Under the pieces are notes generated by a model. The model worked only from the letters and a program-made list of their open reading frames with translations. It was not told the DNA's origin and did not search any database. This document shows, in pieces, positions 46,336 through 62,661 of a DNA stretch of 64,000 nt. The stretch spans positions 806,001 through 870,000 of the forward strand of contig NZ_QFZQ01000001.1 of NCBI RefSeq assembly GCF_003171675.1. Direction: 5' to 3'. Source of the stretch: Reichenbachiella versicolor (GTDB taxonomy: Bacteria > Bacteroidota > Bacteroidia > Cytophagales > Cyclobacteriaceae). Each line of letters begins with the position of its first letter. Within the stretch, counting starts at the first letter, position 1. The translations under genes were made by a program, and so were the position numbers.

Positions 46336-47753
46336 AGTATTTCAAATTTTGATGGTCCTGTAAATTTAGTTTGGTATGTATCTATCAGTTTTTCGTCTTG
46401 ATCAAACAATCCGATTTCTATGTTCATAGTTCTGCCTTTTAGTTCTTTTCTCGGAATCTTTATGATGAAAGTGCCTTCCGATTTTTCATTCGGACCCAAT
46501 TGTATGGTTGATTTACCAATTTTTTCGGTTTCTGCATCATTTACTCCTACTGTTTTAATTATGAGTGACTTATGGTTAAAAGTCTTATTTACAAATTCTA
46601 TATTATACAGATTTGTGATTCTACCATCTTCAAGTTTCTCATATACCTGGCCAGGAGCTTTAAGAATTGTAACTTCAATTTCCTCTCGAGACACCAACAT
46701 ATAAGATAGGAAAGTAACTAATGCAATTAATACTAGAATGTATCCTGCAATTCTAGTAGTGAATAATCTGCTGATACCATCTTTGACCGAATTATAGGAA
46801 GCGTACCTAATTAACCCTTTTGGACGTCCGACTTTAGTCATGACATCGTCACAGACATCCATACATGCAGTACAGTTAACACACTCTAGTTGCGTACCAT
46901 TTCTTATATCAATGCCAGTAGGACAGACATGAACACAAAGTTTACAATCGATACAAGCTCCCGCTTCGTTGGACGTTATTCCTTTTTTGATTCGTTCTCT
47001 AGGTTCGCCTCTCACCCAATCATACATTACAGCGATAGAATCCTTTACAAGAAGAACGCCTTGAAGTCTTCCGTATGGACAAACTGTTACGCAAGCCTGT
47101 TCTCTAAAGAATGCAAATACCCAATAGAAAATACCGGTAAAGAACATTAGTCCAACAAAGCCAGATAAATGTTCAGTTGGATACTGTGTCACTACTTTTA
47201 CCACTTCTTCAACTCCTATTAGATAGGCCATGACGGTATGAGAAATCAATAAAGAAATTAACAGGAAGATGGTTTGTTTGCTGATTTTCTTGAATATCTT
47301 TTCTCTAGTCCAAGGAGCATCATTTAGTTTTCGCTGTTGATTAGCATCTCCTTCGATCCAATATTCAATTTTTCGAAAGACCATCTCCATGAACAAGGTC
47401 TGAGGACATGCCCATCCACACCATACCCTTCCAAAGGCTACAGTAAAAAGAATAATGAATACGAATAAAGTGACTAGAAGTAATGCGAGTAGAAAAAAAT
47501 CCTGAGGCCAAAATGGTAGCCCTAGGATTATAAATTTTCGTTCAAAAAAGTTTAGAAGTAATAATGGTTGTCCCCCAACTTTTAGAAATGGCCCCAAAAA
47601 GAGTAAAGAAAGTAGTAATGCTGTTACTATTACACGTTTCTTGTGAAAAGCTCCTTTAGGTTTTTTAGGATAAATCCAGACTCTTTTTCCTTCCTCATCG
47701 ACAGTAGATATTGAATCTCTGTATTCTTCTTCGTACTCAAATTGGGTCTCCAT
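46332..47753 (-). CDS. ccoG: cytochrome c oxidase accessory protein CcoG (RdxA/FixG)
   Basis: 473-residue membrane ferredoxin required for cbb3 oxidase maturation, probably reducing copper. The N-terminal half has several membrane segments and the CGWACPQTLFMEMVFRKIEYW motif. Residues about 250-300 contain two 4Fe-4S clusters (CIDCKLCVHVCPTGID and CVNCTACMDVCD). The C-terminal third is an Ig-like periplasmic domain. Lies 32 bp after ccoP. Confidence 0.95.
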   Translation of the reverse strand: METQFEYEEEYRDSISTVDEEGKRVWIYPKKPKGAFHKKRVIVTALLLSLLFLGPFLKVGGQPLLLLNFFERKFIILGLPFWPQDFFLLALLLVTLFVFIILFTVAFGRVWCGWACPQTLFMEMVFRKIEYWIEGDANQQRKLNDAPWTREKIFKKISKQTIFLLISLLISHTVMAYLIGVEEVVKVVTQYPTEHLSGFVGLMFFTGIFYWVFAFFREQACVTVCPYGRLQGVLLVKDSIAVMYDWVRGEPRERIKKGITSNEAGACIDCKLCVHVCPTGIDIRNGTQLECVNCTACMDVCDDVMTKVGRPKGLIRYASYNSVKDGISRLFTTRIAGYILVLIALVTFLSYMLVSREEIEVTILKAPGQVYEKLEDGRITNLYNIEFVNKTFNHKSLIIKTVGVNDAETEKIGKSTIQLGPNEKSEGTFIIKIPRKELKGRTMNIEIGLFDQDEKLIDTYQTKFTGPSKFEIL

Positions 47754-47785
47754 TTCGTTAATTATGTGTTCGCTTTTTTGAGCTT

Positions 47786-48670
47786 TTAATTTGCCGCTTC
47801 TATGTATTTTTCACCTTGAGGCGCTTTAGCATTAGGCGGATTAGTCCCTCTCAGAGTAGCTATATAGGAGTTTACCTCGTAGATTTTAGCTGGTGATAAT
47901 ACATCTTTCCAAGCTATCATACCTTTTTCAGGAATACCGTTTTTAATTGAATAATACGTTTCAGAAGCAGACCCTCCATGCAACCAATATTCATCTGTAA
48001 GGTTTGGTCCGATTCCTCCTTCTCCAGAGGCTTTATGACAAGCAACACAGTTACGGTCATAAGTGGTTTTTCCATTAGCTATAATACTAGCATCTTCAGA
48101 ATAAACAATATTACTTTCATCGATTGTGACTTCTTGTTCACCGGAATTGGCTTTGGAAGATTCAGCTTCTGCCATAGCTATTTCATATTCCTCAACTGGT
48201 AAAGGTGCTGTTTTTAAAATGTGGTAATTGAACATATAGACTACAGCAAAAACAATAGTGACATAGAATAATGCTGTCCACCAAGGTGGAAGGTGATTAT
48301 CTAACTCTCGAATTCCGTCGTACTCATGATCAAGCTCAATAGTAGATTCTTTTTCAATAGGAATTGAATTGGTTAACTTATTCATCCAAACAGACCACAT
48401 ACTTGGTTCAGGAACATACTCTTCACCCTTTTCTACAGCCTTTTTAGTAGCATCTTGAGTAATTATTACTTTTAAAATTTGTAAAAGAACAATCGATATA
48501 ATTAATACTACTACTAGAATAATTACCATTAGCGAGAATATTGCTACAGTAAAATAGTCTTCTCCCATAAAAGTACCTGATGTATTTTGAGCTTGACCTG
48601 TTGACAGGAATAGAGCTGATAGAACTACTGTCAGTAATCCTTTAATCCATAGTTTTTTATCAATTGTCAT
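47786..48670 (-). CDS. ccoP: cbb3 oxidase subunit III, monoheme CcoP
   Basis: About 294 residues from the Met of MTIDKKLWIKG, which leaves 4 bp after ccoQ; the longer form to 48694 would overlap ccoQ. It has an N-terminal hydrophobic segment, a second membrane helix, and the CcoP motif EYDGIRELDNHLPPWWTALFYVTI (about 115-140) that precedes the third. The C-terminal cytochrome c domain has one heme site, CVACH, with a Met-containing GMIAWKDVLSP segment. Only one CxxCH is present, while proteobacterial CcoP has two; the monoheme form occurs in Bacteroidota. It delivers electrons to CcoO/CcoN. Confidence 0.93.
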   Translation of the reverse strand: MTIDKKLWIKGLLTVVLSALFLSTGQAQNTSGTFMGEDYFTVAIFSLMVIILVVVLIISIVLLQILKVIITQDATKKAVEKGEEYVPEPSMWSVWMNKLTNSIPIEKESTIELDHEYDGIRELDNHLPPWWTALFYVTIVFAVVYMFNYHILKTAPLPVEEYEIAMAEAESSKANSGEQEVTIDESNIVYSEDASIIANGKTTYDRNCVACHKASGEGGIGPNLTDEYWLHGGSASETYYSIKNGIPEKGMIAWKDVLSPAKIYEVNSYIATLRGTNPPNAKAPQGEKYIEAAN

Positions 48671-48674
48671 AGCA

Positions 48675-48845
48675 TTAAGAATTTTTAGTCTCATTAACAG
48701 GTAGATTTCTCATATCATTGATATATTTTTTATCGGCTTTAAAAACCCACCAGAGCAACCCGATGAAGAAGACGAAAAAAATCGACAGTGAAATAATAGG
48801 CCATATGGCTACATTATGAATTTGTTCGAAATAGTACTTAAACAT
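48675..48845 (-). CDS. ccoQ: cbb3 oxidase small subunit CcoQ
   Basis: 56 residues, read directly from the sequence. It starts MFKYYFEQIHNVAIWP, then has a single membrane helix (ISLSIFFVFFIGLLWWVF) and a basic tail ADKKYINDMRN. Size, one helix and the position between ccoNO and ccoP identify it as CcoQ, which stabilises the oxidase. It is 4 bp from both neighbours. Confidence 0.88.
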   Translation of the reverse strand: MFKYYFEQIHNVAIWPIISLSIFFVFFIGLLWWVFKADKKYINDMRNLPVNETKNS

Positions 48846-48849
48846 CGTT

Positions 48850-50970
48850 TTACTTTTTATCTCCTTGAATATCTGTTCCTAATCTTTGCAAATAGGAAAT
48901 CAAAGCAATGATTTCCATGTCTTGACTGATTTCAATACCATCACCCCTTAGATTTTTTACTATACCAGCTGCTTGAGCTTCTAGTTCCTTACTAGCTCTT
49001 TCTTCATACCCTTCTTCATATGGAACACCGACAGCTCTTAGAGCATTAATTTTGGCCCCAGTAGATGATTTGTCGATTTTTTGATCAAACAACCAAGGGT
49101 AATTTGGCATTATTGATCCTTCAGATACTGCTGCTGGTTCTAGCATATGGTTAAAGTGCCAAGTATCTGATTTTTTTAATTTACCCACACCTTCTCTAGC
49201 TAAGTCTGGACCTGTTCTCTTTGATCCCCAGAGGAATGGGTGATCATACACAAACTCACCAGCTTTAGAGTATTCACCATATCTCTCGGTTTCTGATCTA
49301 AATGGACGGATCATCTGTGAGTGACAGTTGTTACATCCTTCACGGATATAAATATCTCTGCCCTGAAGTTCGAGTGGGGTATAGGGTTTTACAGAAGATA
49401 TAGTAGGTACATTCGATTTTATCAAGAATGTAGGAACCATCTCAATTACACCACCAATTACAATTGCTACTGTAGTAAGTACGGTGAATATTACGGGTTT
49501 TCTTTCTAGTACATTATGCCAGTGACCACCAGTGATTTCTTTTTTCTCTAACGCTAGAGCTTCATCAGCTTCCTCTGCTTGGAATTGGCCAGATTTAGCA
49601 GTTTTTATCAAGTTGTAAATCATTAAGAATACACCTATTAGGTATAGTCCACCACCAACTGCCCTTAGAGCGTATAGTGGAATGATTTGGACAACTGTTT
49701 CTAAAAAATTACCATAAGCTAAAAAGCCTTCGCTATCAAACTCTTTCCACATAAGACTTTGAGTAATACCAGCTACATACATAGGAAGAGCATAGAAAAT
49801 GATACCAAGAGTACCTAACCAGAAGTGGGTATTGGCTAATGGTATGGAGTGAAGTTTGGTTTTCCACATTTTAGGTATTAACCAATAAAAAATGCTGAAA
49901 ATGATAAAACCATTCCAACCAAGTCCTCCAATGTGAACATGAGCAACGATCCAGTCCGTATAGTGCGCAATGGCAGAGACATTTTTCAATGATAGCATAG
50001 GCCCCTCAAAAGTTGCCATTCCATAAGCCGTTACAGCTACCACCATAAACTTTAGTACGGGGTCCTCTCTTACACGATCCCATGCACCTCTCAGAGTTAA
50101 TAAACCATTTAACATTCCTCCCCAAGAAGGTGCAATTAGCATTATGGAGAAAACCGTACCTAACGATTGTGCCCAGTCAGGAAGTGAGGTGTATAATAAA
50201 TGATGAGGTCCAGCCCATATATAGATAAAAATCAATGACCAGAAATGTATGATTGATAGCTTGTATGAATATACAGGTCTGTTTGCGGCCTTTGGAAGGT
50301 AGTAATACATGATTCCTAAGAATGGGGTAGTAAGGAAGAATGCTACAGCATTGTGGCCATACCACCATTGTACCAATGCATCTTGCACACCAGCATACCA
50401 TGAATAACTTTTAAAAAGTGAAACAGGCATCTCGAAGGAATTCACCACGTGTAATACGGCTACAGTGACGAATGTTGCTATATAAAACCAGATAGCCACA
50501 TACATGTGTCTTTCTCTTCTTTTTATGATGGTACCAATCATATTAATACCGAATACTACCCATATCAATGTTATAGCTATATCTATTGGCCATTCGAGTT
50601 CAGCATATTCTTTACTCGTAGTATATCCCAGAGGTAGAGTGATTGCAGCTGCTAGGATAATTAGTTGCCATCCCCAAAAATGAATCCATGATAATGTGTC
50701 ATTGAACATTCTTGCTTTTAGCAATCGTTGCATAGAGTAGTATACTCCAGCGAACATTGCGTTTCCTACGAAAGCAAAAATTATGGCGTTAGTATGAAGT
50801 GGTCGGATACGACCAAATGTAGTGTATTGCAAATCGAAGTTGAATACGGGATAGAATAGTTGAATAGCAGCGGTAAGTCCGCCTAACATCCCAACTACTC
50901 CAAAAATGATCGATGCAATGGTAAAGTACTTGACAATTTTATTGTCATAGCTAAATTTTTCCAGTTCCAT
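48850..50970 (-). CDS. ccoN: fused cbb3 oxidase catalytic subunit CcoN and heme c subunit CcoO
   Basis: 706 residues joining two usual subunits. Residues about 1-480 are CcoN: twelve membrane helices, heme-copper ligands in RPLHTNAIIFAFVGNAMF, WYGHNAVAFFLT, GPHHLLYTSLPDW and HVHIGGLGWNGF. From about 490 onward is CcoO: one membrane anchor then a cytochrome c domain with CNNCHSQMIRPF. The oxidase reduces oxygen to water with high affinity and pumps protons, suiting low-oxygen growth. First gene of the operon ccoNO-Q-P-G-H-safE. An FNR-like site lies about 86 bp upstream. Confidence 0.96.
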   Translation of the reverse strand: MELEKFSYDNKIVKYFTIASIIFGVVGMLGGLTAAIQLFYPVFNFDLQYTTFGRIRPLHTNAIIFAFVGNAMFAGVYYSMQRLLKARMFNDTLSWIHFWGWQLIILAAAITLPLGYTTSKEYAELEWPIDIAITLIWVVFGINMIGTIIKRRERHMYVAIWFYIATFVTVAVLHVVNSFEMPVSLFKSYSWYAGVQDALVQWWYGHNAVAFFLTTPFLGIMYYYLPKAANRPVYSYKLSIIHFWSLIFIYIWAGPHHLLYTSLPDWAQSLGTVFSIMLIAPSWGGMLNGLLTLRGAWDRVREDPVLKFMVVAVTAYGMATFEGPMLSLKNVSAIAHYTDWIVAHVHIGGLGWNGFIIFSIFYWLIPKMWKTKLHSIPLANTHFWLGTLGIIFYALPMYVAGITQSLMWKEFDSEGFLAYGNFLETVVQIIPLYALRAVGGGLYLIGVFLMIYNLIKTAKSGQFQAEEADEALALEKKEITGGHWHNVLERKPVIFTVLTTVAIVIGGVIEMVPTFLIKSNVPTISSVKPYTPLELQGRDIYIREGCNNCHSQMIRPFRSETERYGEYSKAGEFVYDHPFLWGSKRTGPDLAREGVGKLKKSDTWHFNHMLEPAAVSEGSIMPNYPWLFDQKIDKSSTGAKINALRAVGVPYEEGYEERASKELEAQAAGIVKNLRGDGIEISQDMEIIALISYLQRLGTDIQGDKK

Positions 50971-51342
50971 AAAGATTCTAGTTTGTATAGTTGCTGGCTA
51001 AAGTAGCTGAATGGAGTATTGGGGTAAATGACGTAGTTTGATCATTCACATGATCTAAGTCATATCTAAATATGACTGGATATTTAACACTTTATAAGTG
51101 CTTGTTAGTTAGTGTTGTATGTAAGTTTTGTTCTTTGGTGAGTTAAGTTTCTATAGCAATCTTTTTGCTTTGGAAGATGGAAGCAATTTTATTTTAATGA
51201 TGGGTGTCATTTTTTAGTCAATCAGATAAAAGTTATTTGTTCCAGTTAAAGATTGAATTATTCATTTCTCTGAGCAACTATTTGGTTTTAAGTCAAGTAG
51301 TTGCTCATTATTTGGAGTTGAAAAGTTATGTTTAGTCAGCTT
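50971..51342. other. 372-bp regulatory region upstream of ccoNO
   Basis: Separates ccoNO (leftward) from the end of the MCP gene (also leftward). It contains nested dyads about 70-107 bp upstream of ccoNO, described separately. No gene is visible. Confidence 0.5.
51040..51077. promoter_or_regulatory. FNR-like site and dyad cluster upstream of ccoNO
   Basis: Three overlapping dyads: GATCAT-TCAC-ATGATC (51040-51055), TGATCTAAGTCA (51051-51062, one mismatch from the FNR pattern TGAT-N4-ATCA) and AGTCATAT-CTAA-ATATGACT (51058-51077, perfect). The middle one is about 86 bp from the ccoNO start, matching the spacing of the exact FNR sites in front of hemN and the usp genes. Which dyad is bound, and by what, cannot be told by eye. 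Confidence 0.5.
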
Positions 51343-53046
51343 TTACTTTCTTTTCTCTAAAGTGAACATATTAAGAGTGCTTTGCAACTGATTAGAAAGT
51401 ACATTGAAGTTTTTGGAGTGCTCTAAAAATTGCTTCATACCTGCTGCAAGTTCTGTTGCAGAACTTGCTACTTGATCTGTTGCTGTAGAAGTTTCTTCGG
51501 CTATAACAAGGACGTCACCTGAAGATTTTACTATTGATGAAGCATTGTTAGTCTGCGAATCTGCTGAAGATAGAATTTGTTTAGATAAAGAAAGAGTAGA
51601 GCTTGATGCACTCGAAATGTCATTAATGACTTCTGAGACAAAAGTAGAGGAGTTGACACCTTTACTTACTTCAGTGAGCATATTGGTGATCATTTCTTCG
51701 GATACTTTGGTATCTTTTTGAATATCATTAATAAGTATTTCAATTTCTCTAGCTGATTTTTTAGAGTCTTCAGCTAGTTTTCTAATTTCTTCCGCTACTA
51801 CAGCAAACCCTCTTCCATAATCACCTGCTTGAGCAGCTTCAATAGCCGCATTTAGTGCTAATAAATTAGTTTGAGCTGCAATCTCAGTGATTACTCCAAG
51901 GACTCTAGATATATCCGTTGACCTTTGATTTAAATTGTTTATAGAATTGCTAGCTTTTTCAGATGTATTTGCAACGACTTTGATTACTTCAATTAAACCA
52001 CTTACATGATTATTACCTTTTTGTGAAGCTTCAGCGCCATTATTTGCCAACATGTCAATTTTACCAGATAGCTGTTGCATGTTTTTTGATGATGAAAATA
52101 TATGCTCTATTAAGACAGAAGTTTCTTCAAGTCTTGTCAATTGGTCTTGAGCTCCAGAACTGATTTGATTTATAGCTCCTGCAATTTCTTCAGTAGAGAC
52201 GTTCATATCCTGTCCTACGGTCATCATTTCCTCAGAATAAGTGTTTATGTGAGATGAACTAGAGCTTACTTCTTTTAATAACATTAATAAAGCTTCAAGC
52301 GATGCATTTAAGTTATCAGATAGCTTTTTAAAATCACCTTTAGCTTTGATTTGACATCTTCCAGAAAGATCCCCGTTTGACATATTCTCTAGAATATCAA
52401 CTACTTCAGTAAGAGGAGTGTCGATTGATTCTAATAGATTGTTAAATGATTGTGTTAAATCTTTCCATACTCCAACACGTTGCTCGTTATCTATTCTAAT
52501 TTTTAAATTTCCATTTTGACCAGCTTCTTGTACAGCATCATTGATTTCTTCAAAGGATCGTGTAAGCTTAGATTGCATAGTTTTAAGAGCTATTCCAAGT
52601 CTATCATCCTCACTAAGTAAATCAAGTTTATTATTGAGATTACCTGAACTAATATTTTCTACATACTTGGAGATAGAGTACAAATTACTATCCAGAGCTT
52701 TTAAATTGTGTATGGCTTCTCCTATTTCGTCATCAACGGTATATTCAATGTTATTTGCAAGTTTACCTCTTGATAGATTTCTTACGTAAGAATTTATGAT
52801 GTCAAAAGACTTTAATAACGTTCTGTTGTTATAAAAGAATATACCGCCAATCATTCCTGTGTTTATTAACATTATAAACACGCCTAGCCAATCAAATAAG
52901 GCTTCATATGAAACGTGACTAAGGAAAAACCTGAAATTCAGTATAGTAAGTATTAAAACTAGTAGTGGAGTAATAAGAGATTTGAAGCGGATACTTTTAT
53001 GAAAGTCTTTGCGTAATACTATTTTCCTTGATAAGCTTAGTTCCAT
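51343..53046 (-). CDS. methyl-accepting chemotaxis protein with tandem HAMP-like segments
   Basis: 567 residues from MELSLSRKI (a longer form begins at 53070). Two membrane helices (about 25-45 and 52-72, chosen-start numbering) are separated by a very short loop, so there is no periplasmic ligand domain. Several HAMP-like segments follow (about 70-260), then the signalling domain with the tip [19 protein letters not shown] and [15 protein letters not shown]. It likely senses membrane state, redox or an internal signal. No che genes are nearby. It is divergent from the STAS/PrnB fusion gene. Confidence 0.93.
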
Positions 53047-53400
53047 AACACTTTTAATGATTAAATACAATGATTGCCGTTACTTACTATCGAGAGTAAA
53101 AGCGGCCAAGATAATGACTATTTTAAAAAATGGAAGCTACGAAATATTAAAATAATTGTTACTCAATTGTCACTTAATTGGTCAAATAAAAATACCTGAG
53201 TCTGCCGTTATTTTTTATCGATTTAAGTGTGAAAATATAAATGAAAGTTTTACTTTTAAGAAATAGGAATGTACATAACCACTGAGACCAGCCGTGATAA
53301 TGTCCTTAATAGCTTAAGGATTTTCCACCTTATTATTTTTTACGAATGCCAATTGGTATTTAAATGAAGCAGCATTTGGGGTTTAACTTAAATCCTAAAG
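53047..53400. other. 354-bp divergent intergenic region
   Basis: Between the MCP (leftward) and the STAS/PrnB fusion (rightward). It should contain both promoters. I found no FNR-type dyad and no gene. Confidence 0.5.
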
Positions 53401-54930
53401 ATGAGTAATTACGAGATTTTAAAAGAGACTTGGTGTCAGGTATGGTTTGATGAAGAATCAGAATCGGTAAATGTTAACTGGGAAGGTTATTTGACTTATG
53501 CTCAAATAACAGAAGGTTGCAATGCAGTGTTAAATTATGTAAGGCTGAATAGCGTTAGTTTGTTGTTTTGCAATCAGTTAAGTATGAAAATACTCAACGA
53601 AAAGTCTAAAGACTTTTTGTCTAAGAAATGGTTGGGAGCATTGGAAGATTTGGGAATTGAGAAAATGGCCCTGCTTACGGCTCTAGATCCATTTGCTAAA
53701 GCCTGTATGAATCAGGTAATTGAGAAATATGAAGGAAGTAATTCAATGTCTTTTTTTACTTTCGGCCTAGAGAAGGATTTTTTAAATTGGCTAAAAAAAG
53801 AGCAAGAAGGAAAGACTACTGAAGAAGATGTAGAATCTAAAATATCTGCCTACCAACTTCTAAGAGTAGATGATGAAGTTAAGTTATTGGATCCTCTAGG
53901 GTTAGATCATGATTTAGGCCTTATTCGCGATTACAATAAGGAAGGAAGAACAGAACAGTTAGTAAGTTTGTTATTCTCTAAATTACCTTTACCAGAAGCA
54001 CTAAATAGCTATGATTATTATACGGCTTTAGCGGCTATGAGGGACATTGGTATTCTGCTAGGTTCGATAAAAAAGGCCGGTGTTGAGCCATTATCTGTTA
54101 TACCCGAACTTGAATATGTTTTGCATGAACTCAGTAGGATTACTGAACTGCCGGCAAGGGAAACTCTTATGCACTATACCATCTGGAATCCAGATGGTGA
54201 GAGAATGAGAACCTATACTCACTATAAAGATGAGCGTTCTCTTATTCAAAGTGTAAAAAATGCATTTCCAGCATTAGATAGTTGTATAGACCTTTTGTTA
54301 CAATTACACCATACACCCTTTGAATCCTCAAAATTTGAAGAGATTTGTGATCAAACAACCCGCAAGTTTAAATATGTTGTAGAAGCTATAGTTTTAGCTT
54401 ATAGAGAAGTCTCTCCGGAAATTTTTGCTAAGGAACTCAGATTTTATTTTGATCCTATTAAAGTGGGAGAAGAAGAGTTAATAGGTCCAGGCGCTGTTGA
54501 GATGCCTATGTTTGTATTTGACCACTTGTTATGGAGTTCTATGGTGCTTGATGAGGAATATGTGAAATTTAAAAAGACATATTTGAAATTCAACATGGGC
54601 TTTATGCAAGAGATATACGACAAGTATGATGGCTGGGATAGTCTTCTAGATAAAATGGTTATAAAATTGAGCCGAGAAGGATCTAATGATCAAGTTTTGA
54701 GGTCTGCAAAATCTCTCATGAAATTATGTAATTCACAAAAGAGCTTCAGGAAGCCTCACAAGAAGTTAGCTGATAAATCTTATGAGCATCAGGACGAAAC
54801 AGGAAAAGATAAAGGTAGCGGTGGGTATTCTACAGATATATTAAGTTATATTTATAGTATTAATCTTGAAAAAATTGGAGAGTTAGAAAACGCTTTGGAT
54901 CAATTTGTCGAAATTAAAGTGATCAAATAG
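53401..54930 (+). CDS. STAS-like domain fused to a PrnB-family heme domain
   Basis: 509-residue soluble protein with no signal peptide. Residues about 1-135 form a STAS/SpoIIAA-like domain, paralogous to the protein of the next gene (WEGYLTYAQITEGCNAVLNY, KDFLSKKWLGALEDLGI). Residues about 160-500 match the PrnB (monodechloroaminopyrrolnitrin synthase, IDO/TDO-like) family: AAMRDIGILLGSIKKAG, RETLMHYTIWNP, ELRFYFDPIKVG, GPGAVEMPMFVFDHLLW, and a late KPHKKLADKSYE then GSGGYS. His453 in KPHKKLA aligns with the proximal heme ligand (His313) of PrnB as I recall that sequence. No other pyrrolnitrin genes are present, so a sensor or another heme reaction is likelier than antibiotic synthesis. Followed 72 bp later by a stand-alone STAS-like gene. 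Confidence 0.82.
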   Translation: MSNYEILKETWCQVWFDEESESVNVNWEGYLTYAQITEGCNAVLNYVRLNSVSLLFCNQLSMKILNEKSKDFLSKKWLGALEDLGIEKMALLTALDPFAKACMNQVIEKYEGSNSMSFFTFGLEKDFLNWLKKEQEGKTTEEDVESKISAYQLLRVDDEVKLLDPLGLDHDLGLIRDYNKEGRTEQLVSLLFSKLPLPEALNSYDYYTALAAMRDIGILLGSIKKAGVEPLSVIPELEYVLHELSRITELPARETLMHYTIWNPDGERMRTYTHYKDERSLIQSVKNAFPALDSCIDLLLQLHHTPFESSKFEEICDQTTRKFKYVVEAIVLAYREVSPEIFAKELRFYFDPIKVGEEELIGPGAVEMPMFVFDHLLWSSMVLDEEYVKFKKTYLKFNMGFMQEIYDKYDGWDSLLDKMVIKLSREGSNDQVLRSAKSLMKLCNSQKSFRKPHKKLADKSYEHQDETGKDKGSGGYSTDILSYIYSINLEKIGELENALDQFVEIKVIK

Positions 54931-55002
54931 ATGATTTTTGTCAATAATTGAAGAACTTAGTCAGAGTCTAATTAACTCTCTCAAATTATAAATCTAAAAA
55001 TA

Positions 55003-55425
55003 ATGGAACAGTTATCAGCCTCAATTAAGGAGAGTCTTTTAGATGAAGACTATTGTAAAATCGCTATGCTAGATAATGGGATTTTATATGCTAAGTGGAA
55101 TGGTTTCTTAACAATCGACCAAATTAAAAATGGGTGCGGTGTGTTGACAAACTACATCAAGAAAAACGGATTGAAAATTCATTTAAGCGACCACTCTGAA
55201 TTAAAGGTATTGAATGATGAATGTAAGACCTACTTGTCAACAGAATGGTTTCCAGAAGTAGAAGCTTTAGGAATTACTAAAATCGCTGCCTTGATATCTC
55301 CGAATGTCTTCACTCGTAAAAGTGTGGATGATGTGAACGAGTCAAACAATAGAGTGCAAATGAGGAATTTAACAATTGAAAACTTCAATACTCAAGAGGA
55401 CTGTGAAAAATGGTTATTGGGTTAA
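55003..55425 (+). CDS. stand-alone STAS-like (SpoIIAA-like) domain protein
   Basis: 140 residues, soluble. It is clearly paralogous to the N-terminal domain of the preceding fusion: shared pattern W-x-G-[YF]-LT-x2-QI-x2-GC, NY, and [TF]-x-LS-x2-W-x4-E-x-LGI-x-K-x-A. A typical phosphorylatable Ser motif of anti-sigma antagonists is not obvious, so it may work by protein contact. The same strand and 72-bp gap suggest an operon with the STAS/PrnB gene; a strong terminator follows. Confidence 0.75.
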   Translation: MEQLSASIKESLLDEDYCKIAMLDNGILYAKWNGFLTIDQIKNGCGVLTNYIKKNGLKIHLSDHSELKVLNDECKTYLSTEWFPEVEALGITKIAALISPNVFTRKSVDDVNESNNRVQMRNLTIENFNTQEDCEKWLLG

Positions 55426-55446
55426 TTGATTGTTTTATCTGTTAAC

Positions 55447-55478
55447 AAAACACACGAGTTGAAAAGCTCGTGTGTTTT
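55447..55478 (+). terminator. intrinsic terminator after the STAS-like gene
   Basis: ACACACGAG and CTCGTGTGT pair perfectly (full arms 55447-55458 and 55467-55478, 12 bp each including A/T ends) followed by a T-run. It lies 21 bp after the stop. Confidence 0.88.
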
Positions 55479-55593
55479 TTTATACTTTGATTTAAGAGTA
55501 GTTTGAAATTTTACCATTTAGGTGACATTTATGATTAAATGATAGAGGTGTTTGTAATCATTTCAAATTACCTAAACTTGAGTAAAAAATATT

Positions 55594-55803
55594 TTAAGAC
55601 TTTTTTTGTATTTGCTCTATTAGAATTTCTCTTAATATAGAAGCTCTTTTTGTGTTAATAACACATAAACCCGAGCTTACTTCTTCCATTTTCTTTTTGA
55701 TGCCTTTGCGTATTTTGCCTGTTGTAATACTAGTGCTAAGTGAATCGATTACGAATACAGTTGTGCTATAATGATTAATTTTATGACAGAATGGAGGTGT
55801 CAA
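55594..55803 (-). CDS. doubtful small open frame downstream of hemN
   Basis: 69 codons, starting MTPPFCHKINHY and ending in EILIEQIQKKS. The second half is basic and helix-like. I do not recognise a family and see no ribosome site. It is 26 bp from the hemN stop on the same strand. It may be a real small protein, the remnant of a larger one, or chance. The other parts of 55479-55829 hold nothing recognisable. Confidence 0.3.
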   Translation of the reverse strand: MTPPFCHKINHYSTTVFVIDSLSTSITTGKIRKGIKKKMEEVSSGLCVINTKRASILREILIEQIQKKS

Positions 55804-55829
55804 ATTATGTAGATTGATAATAGAAATAG

Positions 55830-57191
55830 CTAAATTATTTTACTGTACACTGGTTTTGTTTCTTTGATAGTATTTTTCCAAAGGTGAGGGTCAAAAGCCA
55901 TGCAAACGTTCCGAACAAATGGTACTCCAGCTTTGGTAATGCGAATATTATTCTTGGTGCATTCTATGATACCATCTTTATAGTATTGCTGTAGTCGATT
56001 GTTAGTTTCTTCGAAATAGTAATCACCGCTATCTATCCACAAGGTTTGCATATTACACATAAGTTCCGTTATGTGTTTTCTTGCAATTCTCTCTTTTTCC
56101 GATAGATAATGTCCTTTAATTACAGGGAGTTGGGTTTTATTAATCAGCTTATAATAATCCTCTACTTTTTTTGTGTTTTGAGAATAGCCGTGGAAAGTAT
56201 CACCAATAGCAGATACTCCAAGACCAATCGTAATTTTAGACTTCGAAGTGGTGTATCCCATGAAATTTCTGTTTAGCCTTTTCTCAGTCAAGGCTATATA
56301 TAATTGGTCTGATACTAATGCGAAGTGATCCATTCCAATTTCTTTAAAACCCATTTCAGCTAACATATTTTTAGAAAGTTCATAGAGAGACCTTTTATTA
56401 TCACCATCAGGTAGCATTTCTGGAGTAAACATTTTTTGCGCTGGATTAGCCCAAGGAACATGAGCATAGCTATACAAGGCTATTCTATCAGGTAGAAGTT
56501 TTTTCACAAGGTCAATTGTCATGCTTATACTTTCCAATGTTTGAAGAGGAAGTCCATAAATCAAATCGAAGTTAATAGACTTATAACCTATGTTTCGAGC
56601 TTCTTTTACTACTTTTTGTACTTGACTGAAAGATTGCTTTCGATTAATTATTTCTTGAACTTTTGGATCAAAATCCTGAATGCCAAGGCTCATTCGATTA
56701 AAACCAACATCGTAGAGAACTTGCATGTGTTCTTTGGTTGTGTTATTTGGATGACCTTCAAAAGCGAACTGCCTATTATCGGCTATATCTACATCGTTAA
56801 GTATAGTTTCAATAAGGTGCTTTAGATTATGCGGATGGAAAAAAGTAGGAGTGCCACCTCCTAAATGAAACTCGGAAACAAGAGGTTTTTCATCGAAGGT
56901 CATTAAGTACATCTTCCATTCTTTAAGAACTGCTTCGATGTACGGAACTTCCACATTGTGATTTACAGTGATTCGTTTGTTACATCCACAATAGGTGCAT
57001 AGACTTTCACAAAAGGGCAAATGAATATATATGCTTATTCCAGTTTTAGCATCCTCAGAGTTGTTTCTTATTTTTAGATGATTAATCCAAGTTTCTGGAT
57101 TTGTGAAGTCACCATTCCAATTAGGAACTGGAGGATAGCTAGTATACCTTGGACCTGCCACATTGTATTTTTTAATGAGATCTTTATTCAT
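55830..57191 (-). CDS. hemN: oxygen-independent coproporphyrinogen III oxidase
   Basis: Radical-SAM enzyme converting coproporphyrinogen III to protoporphyrinogen IX in heme synthesis without oxygen. I start it at MNKDLIKKYNVAGPRYTSYPP (57191), since the family begins with this sequence; a longer form begins at 57218. The 4Fe-4S motif is CESLCTYCGC (CxxxCxxC plus the extra Cys typical of true HemN), followed by EFHLGGGTPTFF. Length of about 453 residues is normal. Heme is needed for the nearby cbb3 oxidase, and a perfect FNR-type site lies about 83 bp upstream. Confidence 0.94.
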   Translation of the reverse strand: MNKDLIKKYNVAGPRYTSYPPVPNWNGDFTNPETWINHLKIRNNSEDAKTGISIYIHLPFCESLCTYCGCNKRITVNHNVEVPYIEAVLKEWKMYLMTFDEKPLVSEFHLGGGTPTFFHPHNLKHLIETILNDVDIADNRQFAFEGHPNNTTKEHMQVLYDVGFNRMSLGIQDFDPKVQEIINRKQSFSQVQKVVKEARNIGYKSINFDLIYGLPLQTLESISMTIDLVKKLLPDRIALYSYAHVPWANPAQKMFTPEMLPDGDNKRSLYELSKNMLAEMGFKEIGMDHFALVSDQLYIALTEKRLNRNFMGYTTSKSKITIGLGVSAIGDTFHGYSQNTKKVEDYYKLINKTQLPVIKGHYLSEKERIARKHITELMCNMQTLWIDSGDYYFEETNNRLQQYYKDGIIECTKNNIRITKAGVPFVRNVCMAFDPHLWKNTIKETKPVYSKII

Positions 57192-57260
57192 TGCTATTTG
57201 ATTGGATAAGAATAGCAAATGAATAAAAGGAGAAGGGGAAGCTTGGTGAGGTTAATTAGT

Positions 57261-57301
57261 AGAGTAGGTGATCTTGATCATGAATGAAAAACACCTACTC
57301 T
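57261..57301 (-). terminator. hairpin after the universal stress protein gene
   Basis: AGAGTAGGTG (57261-57270) pairs with CACCTACTCT (57292-57301). It lies 8 bp beyond the usp stop. No T-tract follows on the minus strand, so it may be a weak terminator or a processing hairpin. Confidence 0.5.
57269..57280. promoter_or_regulatory. FNR-type site upstream of hemN
   Basis: TGATCTTGATCA is an exact match to TGAT-N4-ATCA, the CRP/FNR-superfamily anaerobox core, centred about 83 bp upstream of the chosen hemN start. It overlaps one arm of a hairpin (57261-57301) that follows the usp gene. Confidence 0.65.
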
Positions 57302-57308
57302 TTGATAA

Positions 57309-58154
57309 TTAATTTAATGTTATTGTCAATACTGGAATTGGACTGTGGTTGATAGTGTCTTCAGCAATACTACCAAGTAAAAAATGAGCTAGTCCTTTTC
57401 GGCTGTGCGTAGAAATAGCGATAAGTTCAGCTCCTAGTTCCTTTCCAAAGGTAATAATGCCTTCCTCTGGCTTTAGACCTGGGGCAATGTGAGACTCATA
57501 ATTTTCTATACCAGCTTTCTTTGCAATTTTATTCATTCTATCATTGATATCGTCATGGTGGTATTCTTCTTTAGGAGTATTAACCCATAGCATATGAATA
57601 ACTGCACCTTGAACTTCTTGAATCTTTTTAGCAGCAGCCAATAGTTGATCATTATCACTAGAGATATCAATAGCAACTAATAGATTTTTAATTGGTTTGA
57701 ATACAATGTCAGAATGAAGAGTAACGACAGGGCATTTGACCTTTCGAACGATCTTTTCTGCGTTTGATCCTACTAACATCTCCTCTAGACCTGTGGCTCC
57801 TTTAGTACCCATTATGATCAGGTCGATTCCCATCTCATCTACAGCTTCTGTAATTCCTTGGTATGGACGGCCTACTACAAGTTTAGATACTATATTTTCA
57901 TCTTTATATTTAGGAGAAGACATGATCTCTTCTAGATCTCTTGAAGTCTTTTTAATCAAGGCTAATACATAAGCTTTCTCTTCTAAGTCCAGATTCCCCA
58001 TTTCTCCTTCCACATTGAAAGTGTTCGTAACAGGAAACTCTATAACATGAAGAAGGTGGATTCTTCCTTCATTTATTTTATTGATTTCTATTGCGTAGTC
58101 CAAACCTGCTATCGCATGTTCGCTAAAGTCAAATGGTACTAAAATGTTGTTCAT
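57309..58154 (-). CDS. tandem-domain universal stress protein
   Basis: About 281 residues from MNNILVPFDFSEHA (a longer form begins at 58175). Two UspA folds: residues about 1-140 with MGTKGATGLEEMLVGSNAEKIV (G-2x-G-9x-G-[ST] nucleotide motif), and about 150-281 ending with STHSRKGLAHFLLGSIAEDTIN. Such proteins bind ATP and help survival under stress, often under oxygen limitation. A perfect FNR-type site upstream supports induction at low oxygen along with the cbb3 oxidase. Confidence 0.93.
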   Translation of the reverse strand: MNNILVPFDFSEHAIAGLDYAIEINKINEGRIHLLHVIEFPVTNTFNVEGEMGNLDLEEKAYVLALIKKTSRDLEEIMSSPKYKDENIVSKLVVGRPYQGITEAVDEMGIDLIIMGTKGATGLEEMLVGSNAEKIVRKVKCPVVTLHSDIVFKPIKNLLVAIDISSDNDQLLAAAKKIQEVQGAVIHMLWVNTPKEEYHHDDINDRMNKIAKKAGIENYESHIAPGLKPEEGIITFGKELGAELIAISTHSRKGLAHFLLGSIAEDTINHSPIPVLTITLN

Positions 58155-58223
58155 CGGTCTATTTTTATTTGTCAACTAATATACTTTATTGGTAACAAAC
58201 GGCATGATGAGCGGACTGTTAAA

Positions 58224-58235
58224 TGATACATATCA
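58224..58235. promoter_or_regulatory. FNR-type site upstream of the tandem usp gene
   Basis: TGATACATATCA matches TGAT-N4-ATCA exactly, centred about 75 bp upstream of the chosen start (54 bp if the longer start is used). It overlaps the stop codon of the MCP-like gene upstream. Confidence 0.65.
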
Positions 58236-58766
58236 GTCCCCAGAGTACTTTTCATATTCTCTAATCAAAACATTAATTACATCGATGATTTCATTTGCTT
58301 CATCTAGAGCTTGTTCCGAAGTCCAACTATCAATGTCAGTTTTAAAGTATATCCATTGCATTTTTATATTTTCAATTTGAGATAGGGTGTAATCTGAGTT
58401 AATGGAGGCTTCAGAAATTATATCTATATTTTTATCAAAACCCTCTGTAGTTTTTTCTTGAAGCTCTTTGTTGTTAAGGATTTTAGCATTTACGATGCGC
58501 ATGAGTAGCATACGAAGACTTCCTGTTTTATTAATGAGTTTCGATAGGATAGCAATTTCGTTAATGAGTTCATTAATTTCTTCCAGTTTATCCTTGGATT
58601 GAGTGCTCATTTCTTGTATTTCCCGCGCCAAAACTTTGAAAGCCGCTCCTTCACTATTTGTTAGTTTACTTGCGCGAATAGAAGCATTAATTGCCACCAT
58701 ATTGGATCTAGAAGAAAAACTATCCATGCTTCGAATGACACGGTTCAAGTTGCGTTTTATAGTCAT
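58233..58766 (-). CDS. soluble, degenerate MCP-like / PilJ-like signalling protein
   Basis: 177 residues without membrane segments. Residues about 18-65 (SNMVAINASIRASKL, GAAFKVLAREIQEMSTQSKDKLEEI) correspond to the tip of a chemoreceptor signalling domain ([24 protein letters not shown]), but with several substitutions. The second part (TGSLRMLLMRIVNAKIL) resembles PilJ/NarX-type helical sensor segments. It could sequester or modulate receptor arrays or signal by itself. It is next to a STAS-like gene and near a full MCP. Confidence 0.65.
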   Translation of the reverse strand: MTIKRNLNRVIRSMDSFSSRSNMVAINASIRASKLTNSEGAAFKVLAREIQEMSTQSKDKLEEINELINEIAILSKLINKTGSLRMLLMRIVNAKILNNKELQEKTTEGFDKNIDIISEASINSDYTLSQIENIKMQWIYFKTDIDSWTSEQALDEANEIIDVINVLIREYEKYSGD

Positions 58767-58928
58767 AGAAATCTATTTCTAAGATTAAATAATTAAGACT
58801 ATGGGTGCTGGACTTGCTGCTCTTCTAAATATCGGGAAAGTTTTTTCTTGGGCTATATGAGATTATACAAATTGAATTAAAATGAGTAAAACGCATGTAA
58901 CTGTATGCAGATTGGCATGGTTAGCAAA

Positions 58929-59285
58929 TTAACTGGTGAGGTATTCTAGAGCATCTTCTTCATTTTCAAAAGGCTTCAAACCATCATTATATAAATTTTT
59001 GTTTAGGTTCTCTAGAATAATTCGTTTGCTTCCATCTGCTCCTATGATTGCTCCTTTTTTTGATAAATGTTGAGTTCTGAGTGCAAGTTTAAATGCTTGA
59101 TCCATTACTCGCTTGGTAGCAAACACTCCACTGATAATGGTGAGATTTAAATTAGGTTCTTGATTTTTCATTAGTAGCTCTTCGGCTTTTATCAATGTTT
59201 CAATGATCTCATCTTCAATCATTCCACGGTAATCAAGAACTAAAATACTTTGGTTTTTATATTGGATAACGGATAATCCAGGCAT
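58929..59285 (-). CDS. small STAS-like (SpoIIAA-like) protein
   Basis: 118 residues with an alpha/beta alternation typical of STAS/SpoIIAA-like folds (SVIQYKNQSILVLDYRGM, LNLTIISGV, KKGAIIGADGSKRIILENLNKNL, FENEEDALEYLTS). No membrane segment. It is not closely similar to the two STAS-like domains at 53-55 kb, but belongs to the same general type. The partner and function are unknown. It lies between the MCP-like gene and ccoS on the same strand. Confidence 0.65.
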   Translation of the reverse strand: MPGLSVIQYKNQSILVLDYRGMIEDEIIETLIKAEELLMKNQEPNLNLTIISGVFATKRVMDQAFKLALRTQHLSKKGAIIGADGSKRIILENLNKNLYNDGLKPFENEEDALEYLTS

Positions 59286-59381
59286 AAAATACTACTAGCT
59301 TAAGTTGGATGGTTTTATTAAAAGTTAGTTTAAACACAGCTAAATAACTATGCCTTATGACATTGAATTGAATTTCATACG

Positions 59382-59534
59382 TTACTTCTTCTTCTGATTA
59401 TTATCAAATAATATCCGAACGGCAGGGGACTCTGTATCATCATATTGACCAGACTTGACAGACCATACGAACAGATAAAGAAAAACTATAGCCACAACTA
59501 GGCTGACAACAATTAACCCGATTATTATTTCCAT
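59382..59534 (-). CDS. ccoS: cbb3 oxidase maturation protein CcoS
   Basis: 50 residues read directly from the sequence: MEIIIGLIVVSLVVAIVFLY, then the CcoS hallmark FVWSVKSGQYDD, and a basic tail. One membrane helix. CcoS is needed for cofactor (heme b and copper) insertion into cbb3 oxidase. Its start overlaps the ccoI 3' end by 10 bp, so it is translationally coupled to it. Confidence 0.92.
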   Translation of the reverse strand: MEIIIGLIVVSLVVAIVFLYLFVWSVKSGQYDDTESPAVRILFDNNQKKK

Positions 59535-61912
59535 GTTCTAAAAATTCGATTTCCTAAAGTTCTAGTAGCTAATGTTGAGAAGATAACGACAGAAATGCTA
59601 CTTACAGGCATGAGTATCGCTGCAAATACGGGAGTGATATAACCTGCTACCGCCAAGCTTAATCCTACAAGGTTGTAGGCGAATGAAAGAATAAAACCAG
59701 CAATTATGATTGACTTCGCGGTCTTGACAAGGCTGAAAACTTGATGCAACTGACTTACCTTATTTCCCAAAATGATAATATCACTAGCTGGAGTAAAAGA
59801 TGAAATGTTCTCTGCGACTGAGACTCCGATATTACTTGCTTGTAGTGCTCCCGAATCATTTAAGCCATCGCCCAACATCATGACTTTTTCATTTCTAGAA
59901 ATATGCTCCACGTATTCTAGTTTGCTTTTAGGTGATTGTTCAAAAAGGAATTCTGTGTTTTCTGGAAATATTGTCTTTAAGTTGAGTTCCTCAAGACTAT
60001 TGTCCCCAGATAGAATAGTGAATTTGTATTCATTTAAATGTTGAATACACTGAGCAAGGCTTTTTCTGTATTGGTTTTTTATAACAAAATACCCCTTGTA
60101 CTCTTGGTTGATCGATACAAAAGCCTGTGCTCCTGATATAGTTTCATTCTCTATTCCTAAAAAAGAGGCATTTCCCAATCTGACTACGGATCCGCTGATA
60201 GATGCTTGTATGCCTTTTCCTTTAACCTCTATAAATTCATCAATTTTAAATGTTTCCACGTCAGAAAGGTGCGCTGAAATTTGCTGACTTATTGGATGAG
60301 TTGAGTTTTTTACCAGGCTCTTTATCATTCCAAGTTCCTTATTACTTAGGCTTTCTCCCTCGAAAGAAATAAGATTATCTCTTCCTGTTGTTAATGTTCC
60401 AGTTTTATCAAAAACTAAGTGCTGTATTTTCCAAAATCTCTCGAGGATGGAAGTGTTTTTGAGGTAAACTCCTTTGCTACCTAGGAAATTAAGCACTGTA
60501 CCTAGGGTGAAAGGAGTAGCTAAGGCCAAAGCACAGGGACATGCAATAATCAGTACAGAAGATACCACAAACAGCAACTTTGAAGAATCTATTACTGCCC
60601 AATAAGCCCCAGAAACAAAAGCAATTAATAAAACAATAGGAGTGAAGTACTGACTTACCTTGTCTATGATTGAGGCTTCTTCTTGATCTTGAGTTTTATC
60701 AAATACAGGATTATTCCATAGATCAGTTAAGTAGCCCTGAGATACTTTTTTAATCGCCCGTATTTTGATCGAAGGCCCTTTAACTCTACCTCCTGCATAA
60801 AGTGTAGTTTTTCTCTCTACTTCAAGTGGTTGTGACTCTCCAGTGACAAAACTGTAATCTATATATGAGTTTGTTGATAATAGAATACTATCACAAGGTA
60901 TGATTTCTTCATTTCTAATTTCTAATACATCGTCTATCTGTATATCACTAACCAGTATGCTTTTTAACTTTTGCTCTATTACTTTATTGACAGCAAGAGG
61001 GAAATAAGATTTAAAGTTCCTGTCAAAAGACAAACCTTCATAAGTCTTACTTTGAAACCATCTGCCTATCAAAAGAAAGAATATCAATCCCGCCAACGAA
61101 TCCAAATAGCCTGGGCCAGAATTTGAAATTATATCGAATATACTTCTGAAAAAAAGAGTAGCTATTCCAATAGTGATGGGTAAATCTATATTCAGTATTT
61201 TTTTCCTAAGCGCACCAATGGCCGAAGTGTAAAATTCTTGCGCACAGTAAAATATTAATGGTAGTGAAAAAGCCAGATTAATGTAGGCAAAGTAATCTTT
61301 GTATACACTGTCTGATTCTAACCCCAAATACTCTGGAAATGAGAGAAGCATGATGTTTCCAAAAATGAATCCCGATACTCCTAATTTCACAAAAGTCTCT
61401 TTTGAATTGTTTTTGACCTTTTCAGAATTTCCTTCAAGAGAAATATTCGGTTCATAGCCCAATTGACAAAGAAGGTCTACGGTTTTTCTGATTGTAGTTT
61501 TTTGTGGGTTGAGATCTACAGTTAATCGTTTTTTACTGAAGTTAATTTGAGATCGAATGATACCATCATCGAATCTATGTATATTTTCTAGAAGCCAAAT
61601 GCAGGAACTACAGTGAATAGAAGGTATATGAAAGGTGATTTTTTGAAACTCTTCAGAATTAAAATCCAACAGAAGTTGAGTGATTTCTTCATTGTCTAGG
61701 AAAGCATATTTCTCTTTAAAAAAATGTTTGAGTTGATTGCCAGGAGTATTTTCAAGGTCATAATAGTCACATAGATCATTTTGATCCAGAAGCTCAAATA
61801 CAGTTTTACATCCATAACAGCAAAATTGCTTGTCATCTTTCCATATTTCTGCTCCTTCTGTAGGCTCACCACAGTGATAGCAAACCGACTCTACTTCAGT
61901 TACATTTTCCAA
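59525..61912 (-). CDS. ccoI: copper-translocating P-type ATPase for cbb3 oxidase (CcoI/FixI)
   Basis: 795-residue P1B-type ATPase that supplies copper for cbb3 assembly. A Cys-rich N-terminus (CYHCG, CCYGCKTVF) is followed by an HMA-type segment with CSSC (about 110-115), eight membrane helices with the CPC motif (ACPCALALATPF), the phosphorylation site DKTGTLTTG, and GDGLNDSGAL near the hinge. The extra Cys-rich N-terminal zinc-finger-like part is typical of FixI/CcoI. The gene lies 14 bp after a usp gene, which probably shares its FNR-regulated promoter. Confidence 0.95.
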   Translation of the reverse strand: MENVTEVESVCYHCGEPTEGAEIWKDDKQFCCYGCKTVFELLDQNDLCDYYDLENTPGNQLKHFFKEKYAFLDNEEITQLLLDFNSEEFQKITFHIPSIHCSSCIWLLENIHRFDDGIIRSQINFSKKRLTVDLNPQKTTIRKTVDLLCQLGYEPNISLEGNSEKVKNNSKETFVKLGVSGFIFGNIMLLSFPEYLGLESDSVYKDYFAYINLAFSLPLIFYCAQEFYTSAIGALRKKILNIDLPITIGIATLFFRSIFDIISNSGPGYLDSLAGLIFFLLIGRWFQSKTYEGLSFDRNFKSYFPLAVNKVIEQKLKSILVSDIQIDDVLEIRNEEIIPCDSILLSTNSYIDYSFVTGESQPLEVERKTTLYAGGRVKGPSIKIRAIKKVSQGYLTDLWNNPVFDKTQDQEEASIIDKVSQYFTPIVLLIAFVSGAYWAVIDSSKLLFVVSSVLIIACPCALALATPFTLGTVLNFLGSKGVYLKNTSILERFWKIQHLVFDKTGTLTTGRDNLISFEGESLSNKELGMIKSLVKNSTHPISQQISAHLSDVETFKIDEFIEVKGKGIQASISGSVVRLGNASFLGIENETISGAQAFVSINQEYKGYFVIKNQYRKSLAQCIQHLNEYKFTILSGDNSLEELNLKTIFPENTEFLFEQSPKSKLEYVEHISRNEKVMMLGDGLNDSGALQASNIGVSVAENISSFTPASDIIILGNKVSQLHQVFSLVKTAKSIIIAGFILSFAYNLVGLSLAVAGYITPVFAAILMPVSSISVVIFSTLATRTLGNRIFRTWK

Positions 61913-61926
61913 CCTTTCTTTGATGA

Positions 61927-62565
61927 TTAAGTGGACTTATTGAAATTAACTATCCTATCTGCAATGCTTGAAAGCTTGCCTGTGAACTGTTTTTCATGGT
62001 CAGGAGATGGATACACCAAATAGGTCTGATCTGGTAGTTTGGATAGTTTGTCCAAATTGCGATCCAGATTACCTACAAAAGCGGTGTTCTCCATAGATAA
62101 TATATCATATTCTTGGTGATCCGTTTTGAAAGTATACCCTTGATCCACCACTAGCACTGGGATAGCAGTTTTCTTGATGATTTCTTCGAACCCCTTTCGT
62201 GAGTCAATGGGTTGTCTAGCATCCGTTCCCATGATGATAAGGTCTATGTCATTGTCGGAGACATATCTCGATACAGAATCTGGTGTGAAGCCAAGTTCTA
62301 AGGTGAATAGATAATTGTGTGCTTTCCTAAAGTCTACTTCCTCCTTGAATTTTTCAAATGTTCTCATCTTTCTAGAGATAATAGATTCTCTAATCTCACG
62401 AGGAGTCACGGCACTTTTTTCGTCATCAGAAGCGATGAGTCTATATGTATGTAATAGAATCACGTTACATTTTAGTAGCGATGACCATTCGAATGCCAGT
62501 TGCGTTGCTGCCTTCGATTCTATTGAGAAATCAATAGGCACTAAAATGTTGGATACCGTATTCAT
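61927..62565 (-). CDS. universal stress protein (UspA-like)
   Basis: About 212 residues from MNTVSNILVPIDFS; a longer form starts at 62592. One clear UspA domain (about 1-145) with MGTDARQPIDSRKGFEEII in place of the usual Gly-rich nucleotide loop, which is degenerate, and a C-terminal second half (about 150-212) that looks like a shortened second domain. It is the first gene of the usp-ccoI-ccoS run and has a perfect FNR-type site upstream. Confidence 0.85.
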   Translation of the reverse strand: MNTVSNILVPIDFSIESKAATQLAFEWSSLLKCNVILLHTYRLIASDDEKSAVTPREIRESIISRKMRTFEKFKEEVDFRKAHNYLFTLELGFTPDSVSRYVSDNDIDLIIMGTDARQPIDSRKGFEEIIKKTAIPVLVVDQGYTFKTDHQEYDILSMENTAFVGNLDRNLDKLSKLPDQTYLVYPSPDHEKQFTGKLSSIADRIVNFNKST

Positions 62566-62649
62566 TGTATTGTTAGAATGGGTTTTTAACATAGTTCAAA
62601 ATTAGGTGTGGTATGTGCGCTTTATAAGGATATCAGTCAAGGCAGAATA

Positions 62650-62661
62650 TGATGTAAATCA
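62650..62661. promoter_or_regulatory. FNR-type site upstream of usp-ccoI-ccoS
   Basis: TGATGTAAATCA fits TGAT-N4-ATCA exactly, centred about 90 bp upstream of the chosen usp start (63 bp for the longer start). It lies between the usp operon (leftward) and a sensor kinase gene (rightward), so it might also affect that one. Confidence 0.65.

Follow-up and report, generated by a model that had tools for sequence, protein, structure and literature searches.

A conserved PrnB-STAS gene pair in Bacteroidota, fused in Reichenbachiella versicolor: a candidate two-part heme enzyme

Introduction

PrnB carries out an unusual rearrangement of tryptophan, and the prnA-D cluster alone yields pyrrolnitrin in Escherichia coli (PMC11791213). 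Purified PrnB is reported there to be inactive, and the authors suspect a missing component, with partner proteins among the candidates. The same text describes FbPrnB, a homologue that binds tryptophan with the amine on the heme and whose Gly210, Gly211 and Ser319 contact the substrate carboxylate (PMC11791213).

Here we analyse a 64,000-nucleotide stretch of the Reichenbachiella versicolor genome (the window), in which a PrnB domain is joined to a STAS-like domain. A first-pass annotation had read this protein as a heme-based sensor of oxygen, NO or redox state, pointing to a neighbouring chemoreceptor, to cbb3 oxidase and hemN genes and to FNR-type sites. We compared the protein and its neighbourhood with those of other PrnB-bearing genomes, and the conserved STAS-PrnB pair that emerged was not found described in the open-licence literature, a scope outside which most subscription journals lie.

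Results

A complete PrnB domain fused to a STAS-like domain

The features of the locus are as follows (window coordinates).

51343..53070, minus strand: chemoreceptor gene (MCPsignal and two HAMP matches, Pfam); not in the conserved unit
53071..53400, plus strand: intergenic region shared by the fusion and the divergent MCP gene; holds neither an FNR-type box nor an Rfam match
53401-54930, plus strand: fusion ORF (STAS-like + PrnB), 509 aa, by ORF reading
53401..53814, plus strand: STAS-like domain of the fusion, residues 1-138 (paralogy, predicted model, alignment)
53815..53880, plus strand: linker of the fusion, residues 139-160; low model confidence at 145-148
53881..54930, plus strand: PrnB domain of the fusion, residues 161-509 including the stop (PF08933, PDB matches, model); IDO/TDO-type heme fold
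54757..54759, plus strand: His453 codon; predicted proximal heme ligand, by alignment with PfPrnB His313
54814..54828, plus strand: GSGGY loop, residues 472-476, containing the equivalent of FbPrnB Ser319 (substrate carboxylate), by alignment
55003-55425, plus strand: stand-alone PrnB-type STAS protein, 140 aa, 72 bp past the fusion (ORF, paralogy, model); keeps H60, S62, K68 and N112

The C-terminal part of the fusion is a PrnB domain, as the first-pass annotation had recognised from its characteristic stretches. PF08933 matched residues 199-446 with 154.7 bits (E 4e-45) against a cut-off of 27, and a PDB sequence search aligned residues 179-500 with Pseudomonas PrnB (2v7i, E 4.1e-68) and recovered FbPrnB (9dfg, E 1.4e-49). 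The predicted model (pLDDT 89.7, pTM 0.75, weak in the linker around 145-148) overlays on the PrnB crystal structures with TM-scores of 0.87-0.92 by target length (Foldseek). Against PrnB with tryptophan and cyanide (2x67) the match reached E 3e-21, a TM-score of 0.90 by target length and an rmsd of 2.4 with 357 aligned columns, corroborating the earlier assignment to the heme fold of the IDO/TDO superfamily. The proximal histidine also appears to be retained as proposed: in the alignment to 2v7i, His453 is paired with PfPrnB chain residue 313, which we take to be the proximal heme ligand, and it is invariant in all 30 aligned PrnB sequences. G364, A365 and S473, kept in 29/29 PrnBs of the clade, are the equivalents of FbPrnB Gly210, Gly211 and Ser319 in a matching that allows for a numbering offset of ~20 residues in the PDB chain, and Tyr259 occupies the pocket position in all 29 as Tyr104 does in FbPrnB. 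The conservation of the carboxylate-site and pocket residues predicts a tryptophan-binding enzyme.

The window genome holds a single PrnB. Among the 31 PrnB loci described below the window holds the only fused PrnB, which is the sole fusion of the STAS-PrnB pair that we found; the other PrnBs have at most 407 residues. NCBIfam gave no match for either the fusion or the stand-alone STAS protein, and PADLOC anti-phage defence models recognised 0 families among four proteins.

The stand-alone STAS protein and the fused copy

The gene following the fusion encodes a paralogue of its N-terminal domain (28% identity, E 4.8e-15), in agreement with the first-pass annotation, which had named both a STAS-like fused domain and its paralogue next door. 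Three more weak STAS-like matches to the stand-alone protein occur in the window genome. Its predicted model (pLDDT 89, pTM 0.82) has a STAS/SpoIIAA fold, the nearest solved folds being SpoIIAA, RsfB, RsbS and the PF11964-type structures 2q3l and 2ook (Foldseek; best E 7.5e-4, three matches at E ≤ 0.001, TM-scores by query of 0.40-0.64 among the STAS matches listed). Pfam gave no match to the stand-alone protein, PF11964 appeared weakly and below threshold in 10 of the 26 members of the set (best E 0.0016), and a PDB sequence search with the STAS profile returned none at E ≤ 1. The annotation had pointed to PF08933 and to SpoIIAA-like profiles; the former matches above its cut-off, and the SpoIIAA-like Pfam families gave no match to the stand-alone protein.

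The separate copy in the window retains C45 and C134 in addition to H60, S62 and N112. The fused domain retains W32, G34, C45 and K68, but has H60, S62 and N112 replaced by L, C and I, and C134 by F (stand-alone numbering). The fold is thus preserved in the fused copy, whereas much of the subfamily signature is gone. The helix N-cap position, located by secondary structure and taken here as the equivalent of the SpoIIAA phospho-serine, is Ser in 26/29, Ala in 2/29 and Asn in 1/29 of the linked STAS proteins, and Asn in the fused copy.

PrnB and STAS genes are paired across Bacteroidota

PF08933 searches of overlapping genome sets identified PrnB in 2/395 genomes of the phylum set, 6/59 relatives, 21/390 of the family, 15/390 of the order and 3/247 of the class sets, and in 3/8 and 2/87 genomes of two further families, whose sets also overlap with the others; as an out-of-sample test of the pairing these two families supplied no new PrnB loci. 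Four genomes were dropped because they scored close to or below the Pfam cut-off (G164, 28.2; G428, 25.4; G952, 25.5; G515, 23.1 bits), and phmmer at 1e-3 found no PrnB in the neighbourhoods of the dropped genomes other than G952 (L062, L075 and L076). Around each of the 31 PrnB loci up to 20 kb was read, less at contig ends.

PrnB and a STAS gene lie on the same strand in 29 of the 31 loci: 23 adjacent, five with an O-methyltransferase gene between them and one as the fusion. The STAS gene stands upstream of PrnB as a separate gene in 28/31, and in 19 of the 23 adjacent pairs the called genes overlap or are separated by no more than 36 bp. PF00891 is present in both O-methyltransferases scanned (Pfam). 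The linked loci span 17 genera and five families. One exception is a divergent PrnB without a STAS neighbour on a MAG contig of Flammeovirgaceae bacterium BBD (L060, of which L008 is the exact reverse complement). The other is a PrnB gene broken into two frames and likewise without a STAS neighbour (L071), which was counted among the 31 loci and left out of alignments and trees.

Only three families recur in more than 6 of the 34 neighbourhoods: PrnB (31), STAS (29) and O-methyltransferase (7, of which 5 lie inside the module). No neighbour gene that could be a kinase recurs among the 34. Most modules have no further recurring gene, and most of the Bacteroidota loci consist of the pair alone. 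Whole-region synteny does not account for the pairing, as the genes around the module are mostly different from genus to genus.

A few loci depart from the common layout in detail. In L056 a far-diverged STAS-like protein of 115 aa is encoded directly upstream of PrnB and the PrnB-type STAS one gene beyond, with a third STAS-like gene ~5.8 kb off on the opposite strand (9608-17483). In L069 a 64-codon ORF, probably spurious, lies between the STAS and methyltransferase genes. The split PrnB of L071 (9459-10636, minus strand) belongs to a genome in which no STAS match reaches 1e-5, and where the PrnB and STAS parts may have been lost together.

A PrnB-linked STAS subfamily

A STAS profile built from 26 sequences was run on 62 genomes, 31 PrnB-positive and 31 PrnB-negative. 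Scores above 150 bits occurred in 29/31 PrnB-positive and 0/31 PrnB-negative genomes, where the positive scores are partly circular because the profile was built on linked members; the absence of high scorers without PrnB is free of that circularity. The best score among the 31 PrnB-negative genomes was 73.7 bits. The two exceptional genomes, G695 and G1032, have no PrnB-type STAS anywhere (best 53.4 bits and no match, respectively). Seven close STAS copies (>150 bits) are unlinked to PrnB, each of them in a PrnB-positive genome; six of these seven paralogues were read in context, L116 (G837) being without a STAS ORF call.

The linked proteins share residues that set them apart from the 16 other paralogues within the stretches fetched, which are a subset of the paralogues of these genomes. 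H60 and N112 are present in 29/29 stand-alone linked STAS proteins and in 0/16 of the others. The corresponding counts are 29/29 against 3/16 for S62, 28/29 against 1/16 for C45 and 27/29 against 0/16 for C134.

In four genomes of one genus a second PrnB-type STAS gene, unlinked to PrnB (L111-L114, near positions 6.3-9.6 kb of these stretches), adjoins genes for a cyclic-nucleotide-binding-domain protein and a flavodoxin-fold oxidoreductase (Pfam, L111 only); this setting is a possible hint of a redox link. In two further genomes a 661-aa protein (L122, 6238-8223; L123, 1989-3974) has a hydrophobic N-terminus and ends in a related STAS-like domain. Among viral contigs no STAS relative was confirmed. 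Plasmids searched with one member as query gave one weak match; a distant relative on a Bernardetia plasmid is annotated as STAS/SEC14 domain-containing.

The pair as a probable mobile unit

The PrnB tree separates the 30 Bacteroidota sequences from the PrnBs of Azotobacter and Burkholderia (support 91/90). Placement among the Bacteroidota sequences disregards taxonomy. For example, L069 (family f63) clusters with three loci of the f1 genus g183 (92/93), and the pair from f109 falls inside the g260/g268 group (100/99). The STAS tree repeats both groupings (100/96 and 97/99). STAS and PrnB distances correlate with r 0.77 among all 29 pairs and 0.65 among 22 dereplicated ones (0/2000 permutations each), r falls to 0.10 among the more distant half (115 pairs), and the nearest neighbour agrees between the two proteins in 9/22. 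From these trees and distances, we regard the pair as a unit whose two members probably move together between families, with weak signal at depth. The fused STAS domain groups weakly, on a long branch (3.17), with unlinked copies of genus g305 (82/70), which makes its origin within the STAS family unsure.

Genomic setting of the fusion

The chemoreceptor gene is indeed divergent to the fusion, and cbb3 genes and hemN, named by ORF reading, are present near it, as the first-pass annotation stated. The MCP gene, the fusion and the separate STAS gene lie in this order between a ccoN/O gene and hemN. The cco genes, hemN and a P-type ATPase gene occur together in 7/7 congeners, a gene for a universal stress protein separating cco from hemN in 6/7, and no MCP, PrnB or STAS relative was found in the cbb3-hemN locus of any of the seven (20-kb stretches). 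Proximity in the window is therefore most simply explained by insertion, the cbb3/hemN locus being the landing site of the module. MCP relatives occur in 1/34 neighbourhoods, that of the window itself.

The intergenic region 53071..53400 would be expected to hold a promoter. FNR-type sites had been claimed near the fusion; the sole TTGA[TC]N4[AG]TCAA palindrome of the window is at 32005, more than 20 kb away, and the looser TTGAN6TCAA is absent from 53071-53400. The looser motif is found in 0/31 upstream regions of the module (450 bp; shuffled mean 0.48), and no 10-mer is common to more than 3 of 20 representative upstream regions. Rfam at gathering scores gave no match in 50500-56500.

The cbb3 locus of the window also encodes a short MCP signalling-domain-like protein (58233-58766, minus strand) and a SpoIIAA-like protein (58929-59285, minus strand; PF11964, 24.2 bits, just below the cut-off of 25), and neither has a relative in the seven congeners' stretches.

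Relation to pyrrolnitrin biosynthesis

Reading the ORFs of 44000-64000 revealed no prnA, prnC or prnD, which bears out the annotation's statement that none is nearby. The sole Trp_halogenase match of the genome scores 25.5 bits, in a family that also matches in E. coli; judged from sequence, no convincing halogenase is predicted in the window genome. Elsewhere PrnB relatives do lie in biosynthetic surroundings. The Azotobacter and Burkholderia homologues are in prn clusters (plasmid neighbourhoods read), and one of two Streptomyces PrnBs adjoins flavin-oxidoreductase, ketoacyl-synthase and carrier-protein genes; relatives of the domain thus take part in biosynthesis. A regular place of homologues in biosynthetic clusters, which the annotation had named as refuting its sensor, holds for Azotobacter, Burkholderia and apparently one of the two Streptomyces, but not for most Bacteroidota loci.

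The STAS profile found no match in the 54 ORFs of four plasmid PrnB neighbourhoods (Azotobacter, one of three Burkholderia, two Streptomyces). Together with the sufficiency of prnA-D in E. coli, this implies that PrnB chemistry per se does not need a STAS partner.

Discussion

We propose, with a probability of roughly 55%, that the locus encodes a two-part heme enzyme, in which a PrnB-type, His-ligated protein works with a STAS-fold partner dedicated to it; the most likely substrate is tryptophan or an amine derived from it. The STAS protein would dock on PrnB and supply what PrnB needs in this clade, whether control of an active-site loop, hand-over of substrate or product, or coupling to a reductase. 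PrnB would bind the substrate amine on its heme and oxidise or rearrange the indole, and where a methyltransferase is present the product could then be methylated; a halogenase step is not expected. On the best reading the window fusion arose after duplication of the partner, and the fused copy may serve mainly as a tether.

The sensor proposed in the first-pass annotation gains no support from the comparison. PrnB heme would read O2, NO or tryptophan and relay its state to STAS domains acting on signalling partners. The ferrous PrnB heme binds NO and reacts with O2 (PMC11791213). The SpoIIAA/RsbS-type folds nearest to the STAS protein and the MCP gene divergent beside the fusion also speak for sensing, and the STAS protein might itself be the output domain. 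However, the STAS-PrnB link is general while the other neighbours do not recur: no signalling gene accompanies the pair, the MCP is confined to the window's own neighbourhood, the cbb3-hemN setting is incidental and the upstream region has no FNR-type box. Both window copies have Asn at the presumed phospho-serine position, where two others have Ala. The conserved substrate-site positions and the O-methyltransferase in 5/29 modules fit an enzyme, and we consider a sensor unlikely. A heme-loading or folding chaperone without a catalytic part appears quite unlikely as well, since chaperones are usually not kept fused to their clients, and the subfamily-specific H60, S62 and N112 suggest a specific site. 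Strict pairing and fusion would also be compatible with a chaperone, and soluble PrnB is hard to obtain from E. coli, GroEL/ES having been used for PsPrnB (PMC11791213); yet FbPrnB is soluble and more than 70% heme-loaded, with no partner mentioned (PMC11791213).

A role of the STAS protein in binding or carrying the PrnB product, or in protection from that product, with no contact to PrnB and the two genes merely co-transcribed, is improbable in our estimation. The gene pairing is compatible with this, but the window fusion favours closeness of the two domains. In favour of product carriage, SEC14-type folds carry small molecules, and the Bernardetia plasmid relative is annotated as STAS/SEC14 domain-containing. 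The least probable explanation by far is a chance neighbourhood or an assembly artefact, in which a sequencing error removed a stop codon and created the fusion. Of the 23 adjacent pairs, 7 have their STAS and PrnB genes in one common frame, and in L053 a single stop separates them, so that loss of one stop could fuse the two; moreover, only one fused genome is known. Against this, the pairing itself occurs in 29/31 loci, the far-diverged fused domain (branch 3.17) keeps an open frame of 138 codons and a STAS-like fold predicted with confidence, and the window genome has a separate STAS copy besides.

Within the two-part heme enzyme, the STAS protein might be a subunit that this PrnB clade strictly requires for activation, so that a heme oxygenase is switched on by a STAS-fold partner; we advance this tentatively. 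If true, this would add a new mode of activation to those of heme enzymes and open a way to active PrnB-type chemistry in vitro. Since purified PrnB is inactive, the STAS partner is a directly testable candidate for the missing component in this clade, and a clade with its own candidate partner turns the open question of PrnB inactivity into a simple co-expression test. The halogenase-free modules, in turn, suggest that Bacteroidota make an unknown product from tryptophan.

Compared with described systems, the partner domain has the same fold as SpoIIAA, RsbS and the PF11964 structures 2q3l and 2ook at 8-19% identity among the STAS matches listed, but SpoIIAA-type proteins carry a Ser at the helix N-cap that both window copies lack, and no kinase-like neighbour recurs at the STAS-PrnB loci. 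IDO and the bacterial IDO-like SO4414 (1zee, 2nwb) share the helical heme fold of the window PrnB at 12-15% identity among the matches listed, and we know of no STAS partner for them. The Azotobacter and Burkholderia PrnBs are ~35% identical to the window PrnB. FbPrnB of a Flavobacteriales bacterium (9dfg) shares the PrnB fold and the pocket Tyr (Tyr104 = Tyr259), and is less similar to the window protein than PfPrnB (172 vs 233 bits). P. fluorescens PrnB (2v7i/2x67) differs from the window protein, which has the STAS fusion and pairing, no convincing halogenase in its genome and Tyr instead of Val117, but the two are alike in the whole domain, the fold, the proximal His, the loop Ser and the Gly/Ala carboxylate site.
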